A DNA stretch of 13,294 bases from Planctomycetota bacterium (GTDB lineage: Bacteria; Planctomycetota; Phycisphaerae; WQYP01): NCBI GenBank assembly GCA_021798635.1, contig JAJZGH010000010.1, forward strand, positions 23,739 through 37,032, read 5' to 3'. A program made the translations under genes and the position numbers. The notes beneath the pieces were generated by a model. The model did not search any database. It saw nothing but the letters and a program-made list of their open reading frames with translations, and was not told where the DNA came from. Shown piece by piece: positions 136 to 13,191 of the stretch; within the stretch, counting starts at the first letter, position 1; every line of letters starts with the position of its first letter.

Positions 136-672
136 TTATGCGGCGACCGGGGCTTCCTTTTCCTTCTTTTCAATAACGGCTTTGACCAGGCCCGCCACGT
201 TGCGGCCCGGCCCAACAATTTGTCCGGCCAGTTTACGGCCCGGAGAAATAGCCAGTGTCGAAATCTGAGCGTGCAGTTCTCTGCGTCCGGGCAGTTTGGC
301 CAGGGCTTCAGTGGCTGGTTTATCCAGCAATTGGCCTTCAACGACCGATCCCTTGATTTTGAGCTTGGCGATTTCCTTGCCTTGCTCGAGCAATTCCTTC
401 ACGGAATCGACCACGGATTCGCCGCCATAGACCAAGGCGTTGGTGCCCAAAAGAAGATCACCACCGGCCTTAAGACCGACCTTTTCCATGGCCCGACGCC
501 CCTGAGCGTTGGCAATGACGGTCATCCGCACATTCTTTTTCTTCAATCCGTTGCGCAGCTTGTTGGTGTCGTTGGCGTTGATGCCGGAATAATCCACAAT
601 AACCACGCTGTCGGCACCGGTCAGGCGCTTCTCAAGTTCCGTGGCAATCAGGTTTTTAATACGCTTACTCAT
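136..672 (-). CDS. rplJ: 50S ribosomal protein L10
   Basis: This 178-residue protein is the base of the ribosomal stalk. L10 binds 23S rRNA near the GTPase centre and carries L7/L12 dimers on its C-terminal helix. The N-terminus has the family pattern: a basic helix (SKRIKNLIATELEKRL), then VVIVDYSGINA, then a LRNGLKKKNV-type segment followed by VIANAQGRRAM. The C-terminal portion is an Ala/Lys-rich helix (about residues 158-178) suited to L7/L12 binding. Length is normal for L10 (about 165-180). The start has AGAGG upstream with an 8-base spacer. The rplA stop lies only 33 bases upstream, so the two are almost certainly co-transcribed. In E. coli, L10 represses its own operon through the mRNA leader; no such site can be assigned here by eye. 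Confidence 0.96.
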   Translation of the reverse strand: MSKRIKNLIATELEKRLTGADSVVIVDYSGINANDTNKLRNGLKKKNVRMTVIANAQGRRAMEKVGLKAGGDLLLGTNALVYGGESVVDSVKELLEQGKEIAKLKIKGSVVEGQLLDKPATEALAKLPGRRELHAQISTLAISPGRKLAGQIVGPGRNVAGLVKAVIEKKEKEAPVAA

Positions 673-705
673 AATGTAAACCTCTTAAGTGTTGTTCAGA
701 AAATC

Positions 706-1425
706 TCAGGCGGTCTCAATAACATCCAGGTGGCTGGTGTCAATTTGCACGCCGGGACTCATGGTGCTGTGTATCGTTACTTTTTTAACGTACTGGCCTT
801 TGGAGGTAGGGGGCTTTAACCGGCGAATGGTAGTAATAAACGCATGAATATTGGCTGCCAGATCGGCTTCGGCAAAACTCAGTTTACCGACCACGGCGTG
901 AATATTACCGCCTTTATCATTTCGGAATTCCACCTTACCGGCGGCATATTCCTTAACGGCATTGGTGACATCGGTCGCGACGGTGCCGGCTTTGGGGCTG
1001 GGCATTTTGCCCTGGGGGCCAAGAACCTTACCCAATCGGGTGATTTTCGGCATCATTTCAGGTGTCGCCACGGCGACATCAAAGTCCATCCAGCCATCGT
1101 TGACCTTTTTAATTAGATCATCCGCACCCGCTTCAACCGCACCGGCAGCCTTGGCGGTTTCAATATCATTGCCTTGAACAAAGGCGATCACGCGGCGCGT
1201 CTTGCCGATGCCTTTGGGCAAACTTACCGAACCACGGACGTTTTGGTCGGCCTGGGTGGCATCGATGCCTAAATGAAGGACAATATTAACGCTTTCGTCA
1301 AATTTCGCCGCCTTGAATTTTTTGAGCACAGGAATGGCCTGCTCAACAGTCACCGGGGTTTTGGGCAAATGCTCCGCTGACTGACGATAGCGTTTTCCGC
1401 GTTGGTTTAATGCTTTAATCGCCAT
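706..1425 (-). CDS. rplA: 50S ribosomal protein L1
   Basis: This 239-residue protein binds 23S rRNA at the L1 stalk, which helps move deacylated tRNA out of the E site. Family signatures are clear: SVSLPKGIGK in domain I, then LGKVLGPQGKMPSPKAGTV in domain II, then GKVEFRNDKGGNIHAVVGK and SF..ADLAANI. Length is as expected for bacterial L1 (about 230-240). The start has GAGGAG upstream with a rather long spacer of about 11 bases. A second, out-of-frame ATG lies 8 bases upstream. rplJ follows after 33 bases in the same direction. L1 is a known translational repressor of its own mRNA in other bacteria. rplK, which normally precedes rplA, is absent: the region upstream is a divergent promoter region facing rpoB. 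Confidence 0.97.
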   Translation of the reverse strand: MAIKALNQRGKRYRQSAEHLPKTPVTVEQAIPVLKKFKAAKFDESVNIVLHLGIDATQADQNVRGSVSLPKGIGKTRRVIAFVQGNDIETAKAAGAVEAGADDLIKKVNDGWMDFDVAVATPEMMPKITRLGKVLGPQGKMPSPKAGTVATDVTNAVKEYAAGKVEFRNDKGGNIHAVVGKLSFAEADLAANIHAFITTIRRLKPPTSKGQYVKKVTIHSTMSPGVQIDTSHLDVIETA

Positions 1426-1913: not shown

Positions 1914-4900
1914 ATGCGTGTACGTGTAACGCAAGTGCGTGATTATTCAAAACGTGGCGATGCCTTGCCCATCCCGAACCTCATAGAGGTTCAGACCGCC
2001 GCCTATCGGCGATTCCTGCAAGCGGACACCGAGCCTGAAAAGCGAAAAAATGACGGCATCGAAGCGTTGCTGCGGGAAGTATTTCCCATTGAGTCGTATG
2101 ACGGCTCGATGAAATTGGAATACATCAGCTATGAACTGGGCAAAGCGCGGTATTCGCGCGATGAATGCCGGGCGCTGCGATTAACTTACGGCATGCCTCT
2201 TCGCATTAAGGTTCGCTTAAGCCGCAAGGACAAACCGGATATGGTCGAAGAATCGATTTATCTGGGTGATGTACCCATTATGACCGGCGGCGGCGAATTT
2301 ATTATCAACGGAGCGGAGCGCGTTATTGTTTCGCAGCTTCACCGCTCCCCGGGCGTGGACTTTCTGATTCAATCTCAGGAAGGCGACCGCCCCCTGCATT
2401 CCTGCCGGGTAATTCCCGAACGCGGGAGCTGGATTGAAATCAACGTCACCAAGAAGGACGTTCTGGTGGTGCGTATTGACCAGTCCGGCAAAATTCCGGC
2501 TACCAGCTTCCTGCGGGCTATGGATGAGAAATATGGCACCGATGAAGCTTTGATCCGGGCCTTTTACGAAACCCGCACCGTAGCCGTGGGGCAGTTAAAA
2601 GCGGATTATTATGCAGTGGGTTCCATTGTGGACACTGAAACCGGCGAAGAGCTTGTGAAATCCGGTGCCCAAATCGGTGATAGGGTGGCTAAAATTCAGG
2701 CCAGTAGCCTGAAAAAAATCGAAGTTATTGAGAAACTTGCGGATCCGCTGATTCTCAACACTTTGCAGGAAGATGATTCCCATAGCCATAAAGAGGCTTT
2801 GCGCAAAATTTACAGTCGTCTGCGGCCGGGCAATCCGCCCAACGATGACAAGGCCAAAACGCTGTTTGCGGAAAAATTCTTTGATGTGGCCCGTTACCGC
2901 CTTGGTCGGGTGGGGCGTTTCCGCATTAACCGCAAATTTGAACAGAATGTTCCTGAAGATGTCATGACCTTGCGGCCGGAAGATATTCTCGGCAGCATCA
3001 AATACCTTCTGGAATTGCGCGGTGGCCGCGGTTATGTGGATGACATTGACCATCTGGGCAATCGTCGCCTGCGTACCATTGACGAACTGGCGCAGGAAGA
3101 GTTACGCAAGGGCTTCCTGAAGCTGCGCCGCACGGTGCAAGAACGCTTAAGCATGAAGGCCCCGGAAGAAGTTGCCAAGATTGTGGAACTGGTGAACTCC
3201 AAGAGCATTAGCAGCTCTATTGAATACTTCTTTGGGCGCAGCGAGCTATCGCAGGTGGTCGATCAGACCAATCCTCTTTCGCAGCTTACGCATGAGCGCC
3301 GTCTGTCGGCCCTTGGGCCTGGCGGTTTAAACCGTAAACGTGCAGGCTTTGAAGTTCGCGATGTGCATATTTCGCACTATGGGCGTATCTGCCCGATTGA
3401 AACGCCGGAAGGCACGAACATCGGTCTGATTGCGTCGTTATCGATTTATGCCGGCGTTGATGACTATGGCTTCCTGATTACGCCGTATCGTGTGGTCGAA
3501 GGCGGCAAGGTCAACGGGGTACATAAATATCTCCGTGCGGATGAAGAAATGAAAGCTGTGCTGGCTCCGCCGGAAGTGGCGTCGCCGGATTCCGGAAAAG
3601 TGCGGCAGGATCTTCTTCTGGCCCGCGTGAACGGTGATCTGCAGCAGGTTCGCGGATCGGAAATTAACTATGTTGATATTTCCCCCAAGCAAACGGTGGC
3701 CATCTCGGCGGCGTTAATTCCCTTCTTGGAGCACGATGACGCGAATCGGGCCTTGATGGGATCGAACATGCAACGTCAGGCCGTACCTCTGCTGATTACG
3801 GATCCTCCGGTGGTCGGAACCGGGCTGGAAAAGATTATTCCTTATAATAGCGGCATGGTGATCAAAGCGGATCGCGCCGGGGTCATCACCTTTGTGGATG
3901 CCTGTCGGATTGTCATTGACAATTCTGATGAATATGTCCTGCGGAAAAATGCCGGGTTAAATGACAAAACCTGCATGACGCAAAAGCCGCTGGTGGCGGT
4001 GGGGCAAAAAGTTAAGAAGGGCCAGATCATTGCCGACGGCCCGGCCTGCCGCAATGGCGAATTGGCGCTGGGACGCAACGTTCTCGTGGCCTTTATGACT
4101 CTCGACGGCTACAACTATGAAGACGCTATTGTCGTGTCTGAACGGTTGATCAAGGGCGATGTATTTACGTCCATCCACATTGAGGAATTCGATGTGGAAG
4201 TGCGCGAAACCAAGCTCGGCCGTGAGGAATTCACGCGTGATATTCCCAACGTCAGCGAAAAGGCGTTGAAAAATCTCGACGAAAGCGGAATTGTCAGCAT
4301 CGGTACGCATGTCAGCCCCGGTGACATTCTCGTAGGTAAGGTTTCACCCAAGAGCAAGACGGAACTATCGCCGGAAGAAAAACTTCTGCACGCCATTTTC
4401 GGCCGCGCCGGCGAAGACGTGAAGAATGATTCTCTGGAAGTTCCCGCCGGAACTGAAGGCGTGGTGATCGGTGCGCAGCGGTTCAGCCGGCGCATGCACA
4501 TGAACGACGACCAGAAGAAAATTCTTCAGAAAGAAATGAAAGAGTACGGCAAGCAGATGGATGTGCGCATCGCCGAACTATTTCGGAAGATGGCCGATGA
4601 AATTAATGAAGCCACCGGCCAGACCATGGTCGATCCATCAACTCGGCAAAAAGTCGGTAAGTCGGATCAAGACGAGGTCATTCTGGAGCAGGTTGAAAGC
4701 TTTGCCGTAAGCTGGATCAAAGGCGCGGAAGATGCCCGTAAGCGCGGTGAGCAGATTTATCATCGCTACAAGGCCACGCTGCAATCCATGCGTGAAGAAA
4801 AGACCAGGAAAATGGAGCACATGAAGCGTGGCGATGAGCTGCCATCAGGTGTTCTTGAAATGGTCAAAGTGTATCTGGCCACGAAGCGGCAACTGTCAGT

Positions 4901-5666
4901 GGGCGATAAGATGGCCGGCCGGCACGGAAACAAGGGCGTCATCGCCCGTATCGTTCCCGAAGCGGATATGCCGTTCCTGGAAGATGGAACGCCCGTGGAT
5001 ATTGTGTTAAATCCGCTGGGCGTGCCGTCGCGTATGAACATTGGACAGATTCTTGAAACGCATCTGGGTTGGGCCGCGGCCGTGCTGGGCTTCCAGGCGG
5101 TTACACCGGTATTTGACGGTGCCAGCGAATCGGAGATTCTCAAAGCGGTCGAAGAGGCCAATGCCCATGTGCGCAGTCGCCGCGTAGAATTGGCTGAGAA
5201 GAAGCTTCCTCCGCCTCCCGGGGAAATTTCCGTTGAAATGCCGGCACTTTTGAAAATTAACCTGTACGATGGCCGCACCGGCGAACCGTTTGAGCAAAAG
5301 GTGACCGTGGGTTACATGTACATGCTTAAACTTCACCATCTGGTTGATGAGAAAATCCATGCCCGGTCCACCGGTCCATACAGTCTTATCACACAGCAGC
5401 CCCTTGGCGGAAAAGCCCGCACCGGCGGTCAGCGTTTCGGTGAGATGGAAGTGTGGGCCCTGGAAGCCTACGGTGCCGCCTATGTATTGCAGGAACTTTT
5501 GACCGTTAAATCTGATGATGTGGAAGGCCGCACCAAGATTTATGAAAGCATGGTCAAAGGTACCAACACGCTCGATGCCGGCACGCCGGTTTCCTTTGAT
5601 GTGCTGTGCAATGAAATCCGCGGCTTAGGGTTGAATATTACGCTGGAAAAGAAGAAAGGAATATAG
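1914..5666 (+). CDS. rpoB: DNA-directed RNA polymerase subunit beta
   Basis: The beta subunit (1250 residues) forms one side of the RNA polymerase active-site cleft. It opens with a standard beta N-terminus and the fork/lobe signature [23 protein letters not shown]. The rifampicin-pocket region spans about residues 441-470 ([20 protein letters not shown], then [10 protein letters not shown]); D450 corresponds to E. coli D516. The residues equivalent to E. coli S512, Q513, D516, H526, R529 and S531 are all retained. The catalytic-centre lysines are K999 and K1007 in [12 protein letters not shown] (E. coli K1065 and K1073). A charged, helix-rich segment at about 857-971 corresponds to the SI2 insertion site. 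The C-terminus has the typical [20 protein letters not shown] segment. GGAGG lies 7 bases before the ATG. The gene immediately downstream is not rpoC but a HEPN gene, 15 bases after the TAG stop. Confidence 0.98.
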
Positions 5667-5681
5667 CGTTATAGATCAGAT

Positions 5682-6086
5682 ATGATCGATTATGTTGTCT
5701 GCTTTAAGGAATTCATCTTGGCTGCGTGGTCTGAAATTAGTAGGGATAATTGGAGAGCGGCGCAAGCACTGCAGGAGCGTTCTCCCCGAAGCAGTGTAAG
5801 TCGCGCCTATTATGCCGCATTTTCAGCGCTTACACAGAAATTTGCGCATAAACGATTGTCCTTTTCAGGCAAGGAGTCGCCGCGGCACCGCGATATTCCC
5901 GACTTGGTGAACCGGGTTTTTCCCTCCAAAGCTCGTGCCGGAGAAATTCGTCGGAATATCAGGGCCTTAAATGCCATGCGACTGAACGCGGATTATTCAG
6001 CGAGGCGGTCCACCGATACCCAATCCGCAAAGGAAGCTATCCGATCCTCGGCCATTGTGTTACGAGCATGCGGAGTAAAACTATGA
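5682..6086 (+). CDS. HEPN-domain protein inserted between rpoB and rpoC
   Basis: This protein of up to 134 residues looks like a HEPN-fold protein of the UPF0332 kind. The features seen are NWRAAQALQE, then SSVSRAYYAAFSALTQKF (the typical R-x-YYA-x-F helix), a PRHRDIPDLV segment, and a closing MRLNADYSARR helix matching the family's R..ADY motif. HEPN proteins are all-helical; many are RNase toxins or partners of nucleotidyltransferases. The canonical R-x4-6-H catalytic motif is not evident, so RNase activity is doubtful. The ATG at 5682 has no clear ribosome binding site. An in-frame TTG at 5718 has AAGGA with a 7-base spacer and would give MAAWSEISRDNWRAA, a natural HEPN beginning, so the true start may be 5718. 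It overlaps the next gene by ATGA, which suggests translational coupling. Function is unknown. Confidence 0.8.
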   Translation: MIDYVVCFKEFILAAWSEISRDNWRAAQALQERSPRSSVSRAYYAAFSALTQKFAHKRLSFSGKESPRHRDIPDLVNRVFPSKARAGEIRRNIRALNAMRLNADYSARRSTDTQSAKEAIRSSAIVLRACGVKL

Positions 6087-6343
6087 GGCTGCAATCGCAA
6101 AATTTGAGTGGTGTTTCGAAGGTGGTTGAGAAATATTTAAAAAAACACCAACCTCGAAATTACAAGTTGGTCGTTAAACAAGCAGGATCCAAGCAAGACG
6201 GCGACTGGTGGTACATACTGGTCCAACCTGACAAGGAAACAGTCAGTTCGTTTGACTACGCCAGCAGGCTGGCCAAGACGGAGGATGAGTTAAGTGAAAA
6301 TGAGCATTTGAAGGTGCTGCTTGTTCCTGTGATACCGGAATAA
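6083..6343 (+). CDS. Small unknown protein coupled to the HEPN gene
   Basis: This is an 86-residue protein I do not recognise. I chose the ATG at 6083 because it overlaps the HEPN stop (ATGA) and has GGAG at 6072-6075 with a 7-base spacer; an ATG at 6068 is in frame but less well placed. The N-terminal half is basic (VEKYLKKHQPRNYKLVVKQ). The middle has a hydrophobic strand (GDWWYILVQPD). The C-terminal third is acidic and then hydrophobic (KTEDELSENEHL, then KVLLVPVIPE). It looks like a compact alpha/beta domain with no membrane segment. It lacks the GSxxxG and DxD features of an MNT nucleotidyltransferase, the usual HEPN partner. By position it is a candidate partner or antitoxin for the HEPN protein; that is inference. 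Confidence 0.75.
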   Translation: MRLQSQNLSGVSKVVEKYLKKHQPRNYKLVVKQAGSKQDGDWWYILVQPDKETVSSFDYASRLAKTEDELSENEHLKVLLVPVIPE

Positions 6344-6384
6344 TTTAAGAACTGAATTTATAACTCTTTTGGGAGTCAATAACC

Positions 6385-9300
6385 ATGGCTGAAACAGCAG
6401 TTTATGATCGAATTAATGACTATGGCGCAGTAAAAATCGCCTTAGCCAGCCCCAACGACATTCGTTCGTGGAGCTTTGGCGAAGTCAAAAAGCCGGAAAC
6501 GATTAACTATCGCACCTACCGCCCCGAACGGGACGGATTGTTTTGCGAACGCATTTTCGGCCCGGAACGGGACTGGGAATGTGCCTGCGGAAAATATAAA
6601 GGCACGAAATATAAGGGTGTCATCTGCGATCGATGCGGGGTGAAAGTAACCCATAGCCGTGTGCGGCGCAAACGCATGGGGCATATCAGCCTCGCGGCCC
6701 CGATTGTTCATATCTGGTTTTTCAAGGCCATGCCCAGCCGCTTGGGCAACTTGCTGGATATGAAGACCAGTGATCTGGAAAAAGTGGTCTATTATCAAGA
6801 TTATTGCGTGACCGACCCCGGCACGACCCCCTTGAAGAAAAAGCAATTGCTCACCGAAGAAGAGCATCGCGATGCGCGCGAGAAATATGGCGATTCCTTT
6901 AAGGCTGAGATGGGAGCCGACGCAGTGCGTTCCCTGCTCAATGCGATGAATCTGGCGGAAGTTTCCAGCCAGATTCGCGAAGGTATTGAGACCACCAACA
7001 GTAAGCAGAAAATTAAGGACTTCACGAAGCGTCTGAAAATCGTGGAAGCTATTCGCCAGTCGCAAAATAAGCCCGAATGGATGATCTTTGAAGTCATTCC
7101 GGTTATTCCGCCGGACCTTCGGCCTTTGGTGCTGCTGGAATCAGGCAACTTTGCCACCAGTGATCTTAATGATCTGTATCGCCGGATTATCAACCGCAAC
7201 AACCGCTTGCGCAAGCTGGTGGATCTTAATGCGCCGGAAGTGATCATCCGCAATGAAAAGCGAATGCTGCAACAGGCCGTGGATGCCTTATTTGACAATG
7301 GGCGCTGCCGCCGCCCGGTGCTGGGGGCCTCCAATCGTCCGCTGAAATCCCTGACGGATATGATCAAAGGCAAGCAGGGGCGATTCCGTGAGAATCTTCT
7401 GGGCAAGCGTGTGGATTATTCCGCCCGTTCGGTCATCGTCGTAGGGCCGGAATTAAAGCTGCATCAATGCGGTATGCCCAAGAAAATCGCCTTGGAGCTT
7501 TTCCAGCCGTTTATTATTCGTAAGCTCAAAGAGCATGGGTACGCTGACACCATCAAGTCCGCCAAGAAAATGATTGAGCGTCGGGACCGGGAAATCTGGG
7601 ACATCCTGGAAGAAGTCATCAAGGGGCATCCCGTGCTGTTGAATCGGGCTCCTACGCTGCACCGCATTGGTATTCAGGCCTTTGAGCCGGTGCTCATTGA
7701 AGGTAACGCTATTAAGATTCACCCGTTGGTCTGTAAGGGCTTCAACGCCGATTTTGACGGCGATCAGATGGCCGTGCATTTGCCGCTGTCGGTGGAAGCG
7801 CAGGCTGAAGCACAAATGTTGATGCTTTCCACGCATAATATTTTCTCGTCTGCCAATGGATCCCCGATTATTGGTCCTTCCCAGGACATTGTGATGGGGA
7901 TTTACTACATCACCACCATGCGGCAGGGTGAACCGGGCTGGCGTGAGGCCGGCAAGGAACTGGCGTTCCATAATTATCACGAGGCGCTGCTGGCTTATGA
8001 CCGCAAGCAGATTGGCATTCATACGCCGATTCGCATTCGCATCACGCGCGGCAAAGTGGTCAATGGGCAGGGCAAAGCTCCGGAAGCCTCCCCGGCTAAC
8101 CGGGTCATCGTATCTACCGTCGGTCGCTGTATGTTTAACGACATTTTGGCGCCGGCCATGCCGTTTTATAATTACACGCTGTCCAGTAAGGGTGGCAGCC
8201 GCGTCATTGCGGATTGCTATCAATTGCTGGGGCGCCCGGCGACCATTGATCTGCTGGACAACATGAAGGAACTGGGCTTTAAGATGTCCACCCTTGCGGG
8301 ATTAAGCTTCGGTATAACCGATCTGCGAATTCCCGCCCGCAAGTCCCAGATCATTGATGAATCCCAGAAGAAGGCGGACCGTGTTGAGAAGAATCTGAAC
8401 CTCGGTGCCATCACTGAGCGTGAACGTTATAACCAGCTTCTGGACATCTGGGCGCACGCCCGTGAAGAAGTCACCAAAGACATGATGCTGGAACTTGAAC
8501 ATGACACACGGGATGAGAAAAACCTTACCCCCATGGCTCCCAAAGACCCTAAGGGTAAGCCCTATCTGAATCCTGTGTTCCTCATGGCTGATTCCGGTGC
8601 CCGTGGTAACGTCGATAACTTCCGACAGCTTGCCGGTATGCGTGGTTTGATGAGTCGGCCCTCCGGTGAAATCATGGAAACGCCTATCAAGACCAATTTC
8701 CGTGAAGGTTTGTCGGTGTTGGAATATTTCACGTCCACGCACGGTGCCCGTAAGGGACTGGCCGACACGGCATTGAAGACGGCTGACTCCGGTTACCTGA
8801 CGCGTAAATTGGCGGACGTGGCGCAAAATGTCATTGTTTCGCAGCATGATTGCCGCACGCAAAACGGTATTCGGAAAAGTGCCATTTACAAGGGTGAACA
8901 AGTTGATGTGCCTCTGCGGGACGTTATCATCGGTCGGTGTGCAGCCGATACCCTGATTAATCCTGTGACGGATGAAGTGATTGTCCGTGAGGCGCAAATC
9001 ATCACCGATGTGATTGCCCGCAAGATCGAAGATTTGAACATCGAAACCGTGCGAGTGCGCAGCCCATTAACCTGCGAAAGCCCCACCGGCATTTGCGCCA
9101 AATGCTATGGCGTTGATCATTCCACCAACACGCTGGTGGAAGAGGGCCTGGCAGCGGGTATTATTGCCGCACAGTCCATTGGTGAACCCGGTACGCAGCT
9201 TACGATGCGCACGTTCCACACTGGCGGATCGGCAACACGTATTCTGGAAAAGAATGACGTGCGGGCCGGCGTTGCCGGTATTGTGGAATATCGTGACCTC

Positions 9301-10740
9301 AATGCGGTTGAAGTTGTGGATGCCGAAGGCAACAAGCATATTGTCGTACTCAAACGTAACGGCGAAATTGCCATTAAGGATTCCAAAGGTCGCGAACTGG
9401 AGAAATCCCGCGTTCCCTATGGTGCGTCGATTCTGGTGAAAGAAGGCGATAGCGTCCGGGGCGGCCAGCAGCTTTGCAGTTGGGATCAACACCGAACACC
9501 GATTCTCGCTGAGAAAGGTGGCCGCGTGAAGTTTGAAGATATTCAGGATGGTGAAACCGCCCGTGCCGAAAGTGAAGGCAAGGGTGGCAGTAAGCGTCTG
9601 GTGATTGTCGAGCACCGTGGCGAACGCCACCCGCGTATCGTCATTGAAGATCCTTCGGATGGCAAGATTCTTGACTTCCATTATCTGCCCGCCAAAGCCC
9701 GTATTGACGTTGACGAAGGACAGGTTGTTCAGCCCGGCACGTTGCTGGCACGTCAGCCGCGGGAAATCAAAGGTACGTCGGATATCACATCCGGTCTGCC
9801 CCGCGTAACGGAAATTTTTGAAGCGCGGAAACCCAAGGATACCGCCATCATGGCGGAGATTTCCGGAACCATCGAACTGCGCTCCGATAAGCGTCGCGGC
9901 AAGATGACCATCATCATCCGTGGCCCGGGCGGCGTGGAAAAAGAACATCATGTTCCGCAGGATCGGCAGTTGCGTGTGCATACCGGCGATCAGGTGGAAG
10001 CCGGCGACTCATTGATCGATGGGCCGTTGGTACCGCATGACATTCTTCGCATCAAGGGCGAAGATGCTCTGCAGCAGTATCTGCTGGGTGAAGTGCAAAA
10101 TGTGTATCGCACGCAGAACCAGCGTATCAGCGATAAGCACATTGAGATCATTGTTTCCCAGATGCTTCGCAAAGTGAAAGTTGAAAATCCCGGCGATACC
10201 AAGTTCCTGCCTTCGGAAGTTGTTGATAAGTTCAAGTTCCGCAAGCAGAATGAAATGGTTGCCAGGATGCTGCGCATTGAAGATCCAGGCACCAGCGAAT
10301 ATACGGTCGGCCAGTTGGTCAACCGTGATGAGTTGAAGGAAACCGTTGCCGCACTTGAGGCGAAGGGTGGAACGGCTCCCAAAACCCGTCGTCCGAAGCC
10401 GGCGACGGCTAAAACCCTGTTGTTGGGTATCACGAAAGCCAGCTTGCAGAGCGAGTCATTTGTTTCTGCCGCCAGCTTCCAGGAAACCACCAAGGTGCTT
10501 ACCGAAGCCGCCATTGCCGGCCGCGAAGATACCTTGCAGGGCTTGAAGGAAAACGTGATTCTCGGCCACCTGATTCCCGCTGGTACCGCGTTTCGGCCTT
10601 ATCAGGATATGCAGATTCTTCATTTAGGTGAGCCTATTCAGGAATTGGAAATGGAAATCCCGGTTCCCATGCCGCCTCCGGAACCCATCGCTTCGGCCCC
10701 CATTAAGGCCGCTCAGGTGGCTGAACCGGCCGGGGCCTGA
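6385..10740 (+). CDS. rpoC: DNA-directed RNA polymerase subunit beta'
   Basis: The beta' subunit (1451 residues) supplies the catalytic magnesium site of RNA polymerase. The first zinc site is C66, C68, C81 and C84. The active-site loop [11 protein letters not shown] has D456, D458 and D460. The second zinc site is C823, C897, C904 and C907. The bridge-helix region reads [19 protein letters not shown]. The trigger loop begins at [16 protein letters not shown] with H945. After it comes an insertion of roughly 190 residues of sandwich-barrel type, matching the E. coli SI3 position and ending before [16 protein letters not shown]. The C-terminal part ([14 protein letters not shown], then [19 protein letters not shown]) is standard. 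The start has GGGAG with a 9-base spacer. It lies 41 bases after the small gene, probably in one transcript with rpoB, and ends at a strong terminator. Confidence 0.98.
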
Positions 10741-12684: not shown

Positions 12685-13191
12685 ATGGAAAATGCAATAT
12701 CGCCCGCGCAGCGGGAACTGATCGTAACTCGCCGTTTCAATGCCCCGCGCGAAATGGTATGGAAAGCTTGGACGGATCCCCATCACCTGGCAAAATGGTG
12801 GGGACCGGTTGGTTTTACCGCTGGCGACTGCAAAATGGACGTCGGGCCCGGCGGCGAGTTTTCCCTCGATCTCCACGGGCCGGACGGCAAGCCGTATCCG
12901 TGCAAGGGGACATACTAGGAAGTCACGCCGCCGACAAGGCTGATCCTGGCGGGTGCCGGTGATTGTGGCCATCCCTGTGGCAGCGGCCTACCACCCCACG
13001 CGGTCGTGACCGTTACGTTTACGGAAATACGCGGCGGGACACAACTCACGATTCATACCCGGTTTAATTCGGAACTTGATCGTGAGGCGGCTATAAAGGC
13101 GGGATATAGCGTCGGATGGACGCAGTGTCTGGAACGGCTCGACGCAGATATGAAGGCGGCGACAATGAGCAGTGGGTTGGACGCCAAGTAA
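12685..13191 (+). pseudogene. SRPBCC/AHSA1-like gene interrupted by one in-frame TAG
   Basis: The frame reads as a full AHSA1-like SRPBCC protein of 168 codons except for a TAG at 12916-12918. The first part (77 residues) has ELIVTRRFNAPREMVWKAW, then DPHHLAKWWGPVGFTA and GPGGEFSLDLHGPDGKPYP. After the stop the same frame continues without further stops: EVTPPTRLIL, then HPCGSGLPPHAVVTVTF, GGTQLTIHTRFNS, and AIKAGYSVGWTQCLERLDADM, quoted here as separate blocks. These match the second half of the fold. The stop falls where relatives have one residue between GTY and EV, so a single base change explains it (for example CAG to TAG). AAGGA with a 7-base spacer precedes the ATG. TAG also ends rpoB here, so it is a real stop codon. 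It may be a recent pseudogene, a sequencing error, or a readthrough case. Confidence 0.8.

Follow-up and report, generated by a model that had tools for sequence, protein, structure and literature searches.

Type VII HEPN–MNT (HepT–MntA) systems are among the closest described counterparts of the gene pair reported here: they too comprise two small co-oriented genes, with a HEPN protein as the toxin-like member. In the sections of PMC11586414 that define them, the HEPN motif is RX4HXY and the motif of the nucleotidyltransferase (MNT) is GSX10DXD, and the account of HEPN–MNT pairs in PMC3710099 puts the MNT gene 5′ of the HEPN gene. The part of PMC3710099 that treats the PF05168 family already lists HEPN proteins in which D replaces H and a conserved H lies elsewhere; its entries there concern MNT fusions and restriction-modification neighbourhoods, not the partner or the essential operons described below. 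PMC8046335 deals with insertions that other phyla have in their rpoBC operon cluster, and its main text does not contain the word toxin. Among the matches listed from open-licence PMC, no title or abstract start concerns a HEPN pair or a toxin pair in the rpoB–rpoC gap.

In the window (the whole 13,294-nucleotide stretch analysed), rplA and rplJ are encoded on the minus strand and are followed on the plus strand by rpoB, a HEPN gene, a gene for an 86-residue protein, rpoC and scpA. The HEPN gene (PF05168, UPF0332-type; 5682..6086), a putative RNase toxin gene, and the partner gene (6083..6343), which would encode an antitoxin of an unnamed family, are flanked by rpoB upstream (1914..5666) and rpoC downstream (6385..10740), all on the plus strand. 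The partner gene lies 3′ of the HEPN gene, and its start overlaps the HEPN stop in an ATGA at 6083..6086 (plus strand), from which we infer translational coupling. Two starts are equally likely for the HEPN gene, ATG 5682 and TTG 5718; the latter is placed 7 nt after an AAGGA and agrees with a relative (P0005) that begins MAAWSEI. A sequence-only reading of this DNA had described two ATGA-coupled genes between rpoB and rpoC with no terminator separating the polymerase genes. The ORF coordinates confirm the former, and the latter holds as well, the single terminator-like match in 5500–6500 being inside rpoB (5577–5590) and no better than shuffled sequences. No sigma-70-like promoter was found in 5500–6500. 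Direct or inverted repeats of at least 11 nt are absent from 5600–6450, which leaves transposition without support. Elsewhere in the window, rplA and rplJ (136–1425, minus strand) are divergent from rpoB, and rpoBC are seemingly separated from their usual ribosomal neighbours. An AHSA1-like gene at 12685–13191 is seemingly interrupted, with a first half at 12685–12918 and a later piece at 13006–13191.

The HEPN protein scores 36.1 bits against PF05168 (E 7.9e-9; gathering score 22). Its AF2 model (pLDDT 91.4) has five helices, and the best PDB match of the model is the HEPN protein AF0298 (2hsb; TM 0.74, probability 1.00, E 3.2e-3); profile and helical fold together place it in the family. The R-x4-6-H motif is indeed missing, as first read, and the protein has R100-LNA-D104-Y105 plus H69 instead. 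All 28 intact pairs keep W16, R36, R41, H69, R100, D104 and Y105 unchanged; in a relative from the database (P0006), position 105 is C. The absence of R-x4-6-H is not new: with D104 replacing H and the conserved H69 elsewhere, the protein matches the D-for-H variant pattern in the family listing of PMC3710099.

The 86-residue partner found no Pfam or NCBIfam family above cut-off; the first reading held that its system idea would fail if the partner belonged to a known housekeeping family, and none was matched in either collection. Its view that the partner is not a recognisable MNT is borne out along three lines. None of the five partners scanned contains a Pfam nucleotidyltransferase, the GS and DxD of the MNT motif GSX10DXD are not conserved in the family, and hhalign comparison with six MNT-like proteins adjoining other PF05168 HEPNs gave probabilities of 0.5% and 0.2%. 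The secondary-structure order of the partner is helix-strand-strand-helix-strand, with a weak resemblance to the KH-II/RbfA/Era KH domain fold. Fold searches in the PDB and in viral models gave no match at E 0.001, a PDB sequence search gave chance-level matches only, and MNT is absent among the 50 matches listed in a VIA-align fold comparison. Foldseek reached the MntA chain 7aer_A only at rank 44 (TM 0.53, E 0.31). The partner conserves mainly hydrophobic residues, its polar signature being limited to one Glu, and catalytic-looking invariants are confined to the HEPN protein. The partner forms a small family of its own that accompanies the HEPN; as a candidate antitoxin family it is new and has no recognised relative by sequence. 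The pair differs from type VII systems in several features: its HEPN has R-x3-D-Y plus His rather than RX4HXY, its partner is not a nucleotidyltransferase and has no antitoxin enzyme motif, and the HEPN gene comes first, with the partner 3′.

A protein search returned 14 HEPN proteins and only 2 partners (close copies included), and an alignment-based search enlarged the partner family to 38. With the HEPN alignment as query, the named genomes of GTDB gave 45 loci. Five planctomycete loci (L001–L005), all from metagenome assemblies, have HEPN and partner between rpoB and rpoC, and one from Armatimonadetes (L006) carries the pair elsewhere. The other 39 have no partner by profile; some of them, such as L007 and L035, have the HEPN gene at or close to a contig end, and in 6 of the 13 of these more distant HEPNs for which the upstream ORF was listed, that ORF is MNT-like (GS...DxD read by eye). 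This distribution, partner missing in 39 of 45 loci and an MNT-like ORF in some, indicates that the partner marks a separate HEPN subfamily. In the order of genome G001, the start of rpoC could be read in 23 of 28 genomes. Six of them (G001–G005 and G028) have the pair intact between rpoB and rpoC, and each of the six related genomes has one partner match. G026 keeps the partner and a HEPN tail at this place, where the pair is decayed in G009 and G011. On sequence grounds the pair in the window is not a chance arrangement, since it is intact at the same place in these six genomes and dN/dS among copies of the window's type is 0.05–0.23.

Across the class, the partner was found in at least 30 of 397 genomes, at no fewer than 32 loci, each seen with only about 1.5 kb on either side. 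The HEPN gene is intact directly upstream of the partner in 26 of the 32, broken or residual in five (G009, G011, G026, G167 and, read by eye, G040) and absent in one (G147); a whole partner ORF stands beside a broken HEPN gene in G026, G040 and G167. The first reading had taken unrelated, scattered ORFs without conserved pairing as grounds for dropping the system idea; the genomes show conserved pairing at rpoB–rpoC and elsewhere. Nineteen of the 32 loci occupy the rpoB–rpoC gap, with decay at three (G009, G011, G026); three lie between iscS and iscU (one named by NCBIfam, two by reading), one between rpsL and rpsG, and nine have unnamed flanks, so that embedding in an operon is not universal. 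In a phylum-wide draw at least 4 of 392 genomes had a partner match, and the pair is also intact beyond the class loci in G656 and G678, the latter (L257) between gltB and gltD (flanks by NCBIfam). In the phylum of L006 the count is at least 19 of 201 genomes. Two of its genomes, G872 and G801 (L260, L258), have one HEPN gene followed by two partner genes, with the acetolactate synthase small-subunit gene (ilvH) and a membrane ORF on one side and ilvC on the other (flanks named by NCBIfam for G801); the HEPN gene is whole in G872 and short in G801. Five loci of that phylum (L259, L268, L269, L271, L275) have a partner with no recognised HEPN nearby. No carrier element was found: viral contigs queried with alignment A3 gave 48 pattern matches, none a relative, and neither plasmid records (queried with the window partner) nor phage records (queried with the L003 partner) gave a match.

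The rpoB–rpoC gap also receives other genes. Among the matches listed, we read the junction in 146 distinct genomes. These include 23 from the order of G001, and the shares are therefore not class-wide rates; six further genomes with an unreadable junction stand outside the 146. The gap is shorter than 250 nt in 88 and longer in 58. A GNAT-like gene occupies it in 25 genomes and additionally in G174 (one representative scanned, below the Pfam cut-off). Seven genomes, counting G174, have the HEPN–partner pair intact, and three have it decayed. In G174 (L244), two HEPN–partner pairs flank the GNAT-like gene within a gap of 1942 nt. Genes for BrnT (PF04365), the toxin of the type II BrnT/BrnA system, whose proteins are unrelated to the HEPN–partner pair, use the same gap in five genomes (L066, L148, L162, L168, L182). 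Each is followed by a second small ORF, two of which were scanned and matched no Pfam family above cut-off. Against a background of 67 places over cut-off in 42 of 198 genomes, five at one site is many, and it makes the gap look like a docking site; coordinates alone suggest a sixth near rpoC in G052, which is uncounted. The remaining contents include a 23S-rRNA-intervening-sequence-type protein in four genomes (L121, L129, L149, L152; two called by Pfam scan, the others by similarity), one PDDEXK_3 protein (L135), a weak HEPN-like match in G046 (E 1e-4, not counted) and unclassified content in 12 longer gaps.

The junction of rpoB and rpoC belongs to the most stable gene neighbourhoods of bacteria, and it was unexpected to find a cassette swapped there while its neighbours stay 97–99% identical in protein. 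Between the window and L001–L005, RpoB is 98–99% identical (100% over the only 43 residues on the contig of L004) and RpoC 97–99%, while against L002–L005 the HEPN proteins are 35–38% and the partners 37–49% identical. Blastn alignments with G005 and G002 break off at the stop of rpoB (5665) and start again shortly ahead of rpoC, at 6355 for G005 and at 6380 for G002; they delimit a replaced segment of 5665..6380 (unstranded). G001 and G005 have flanks 97.6% and 97.2% identical and a dS of 0.075 in the 5′ part of rpoC; their cassettes have dS above 2, with 42% (HEPN) and 47% (partner) amino-acid identity. The reverse holds for the more distant G028, which shares the window's cassette type: dS is 1.8 in the 5′ part of rpoC but 0.75 in the HEPN gene and 0.57 in the partner gene. 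Trees of rpoC and of the cassette conflict with each other, and an AU test rejects a single clade of the G001 and G005 cassettes (p-AU 5.5e-7, for a clade picked post hoc). Tree conflict, dS contrast and AU test together reject vertical descent of the cassette in the close clade. Placement at rpoBC, mapped on a tree built from 28 pairs, needs seven changes, at least four of them being forced by well-supported branches, so a single arrival at rpoB–rpoC followed by simple descent does not fit. Where computable, dN/dS is 0.05–0.26, several values being rough with dS above 2 and nearly saturated, and indicates that both proteins are kept functional. Genome comparison thus establishes the pairing, its place, purifying selection and the replacement of the cassette.

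We consider it probable that the pair is a conflict cassette housed in essential operons, in which a HEPN RNase toxin is combined with an antitoxin that is new and not an MNT. The HEPN would act as an RNase through an active site of R-x3-D-Y plus His, and the 86-residue protein, as an antitoxin without enzymatic activity, would silence it by binding and be produced by coupled translation off the toxin's own message. Having no recognised promoter, the cassette would live in-line inside strongly expressed essential operons, rpoB–rpoC in the window and iscS–iscU, rpsL–rpsG, gltB–gltD or ilvH–ilvC elsewhere. Such a place would give constant co-transcription and make deletion difficult without harm to the host; anchoring and constant expression would be its simplest advantages. 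At rpoB–rpoC the cassette is exchanged whole, for which homologous recombination in the flanking rpoB and rpoC would be the simplest route, and two very different versions thus coexist among close relatives. Toxin–antitoxin-like behaviour is suggested by pairing, coupling, unit exchange, purifying selection and the three loci with a broken HEPN gene beside a whole partner. Two general features of type II systems are present, in small co-oriented coupled genes inherited as a pair (ATGA; 26 of 32 intact) and in horizontal mobility (trees, dS contrast, AU test). Against this reading count the toxin-first order, unlike that of HEPN–MNT pairs, the weakness of the partner's fold resemblance, the nine class loci with unnamed flanks and the metagenome origin of all five named relatives with the pair at rpoB–rpoC (L001–L005). 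The rpoB–rpoC gap also hosts other genes, GNAT-like ones in 25 of 146 genomes, and the place may therefore be permissive and not chosen. The broken copies also suggest that the HEPN is lost before the partner, a comparison biased by the partner query with which the class loci were found, as partner-less loci would be missed. Speculatively, the natural role could be abortive defence, set off when a phage-imposed stop of host transcription or translation depletes the partner.

That last role shades into a reading of the pair as a dedicated anti-phage (abortive infection) module whose diversity tracks phage pressure, not an addiction element. Horizontal exchange, two very different versions at one locus and a weak PADLOC match of the HEPN to HEPN_IX (E 5.8e-4) speak for it, but no other defence-type gene is among the eight window proteins scanned by Pfam, and with dN/dS below 0.3 there is no indication of positive selection; we regard it as unlikely, and it overlaps with the toxin–antitoxin explanation, differing mainly in purpose. 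Quite improbable, in our estimate, is that HEPN and a KH-like RNA-binding partner cut or bind their own message and so tune the RNA polymerase (or Fe–S, ribosomal or amino-acid) operon. The in-operon position in several essential operons and the KH-II/RbfA-like fold would suit such a regulator. Its patchy occurrence (at least 30 of 397 class genomes), the swapping of versions with about 40% identity next to operon genes that barely change, its decay in G009, G011 and G026, and a partner with no conserved polar signature beyond one Glu would not.

The same facts bear on the first reading's proposal of a new type of HEPN/partner pair. The novelty is supported, as a separate non-MNT family paired with HEPN, and its toxin–antitoxin-like branch is favoured; a polymerase-linked regulator is unlikely for a pair that is patchy, present in unrelated operons (iscS–iscU, rpsL–rpsG, gltB–gltD, ilvH–ilvC) and swapped while RpoB and RpoC remain 97–99% identical. 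It is very unlikely that the partner is a degenerate MNT minus its G-loop, the remnant of a type VII pair: the distant Foldseek match to MntA points that way, but GS and DxD are not conserved, the gene order is reversed, and the profile comparison does not support such an origin. Least credible of all are neutral genes without pair function in a permissive gap. The variety of unrelated genes taken up between rpoB and rpoC would allow it, and pairing across many contexts together with purifying selection already disfavours it.

Returning to the putative HEPN toxin with its candidate non-MNT antitoxin, what sets the pair apart is its in-line habit in essential operons: a known toxin fold, a new partner and a new genomic habit. 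A broader proposal, which we put forward tentatively and at somewhat less than even likelihood, is that essential operons serve as docking sites. The HEPN and KH-like-partner family and, independently, BrnT genes would insert in-line, above all at rpoB–rpoC of this class, be anchored by host need and be swapped across species through the conserved flanks, their interchangeable versions being likened to mating-type idiomorphs. Selfish or defensive pairs may secure themselves by residing inside essential operons, and the pair, with its known toxin fold and non-nucleotidyltransferase partner, is a testable system.
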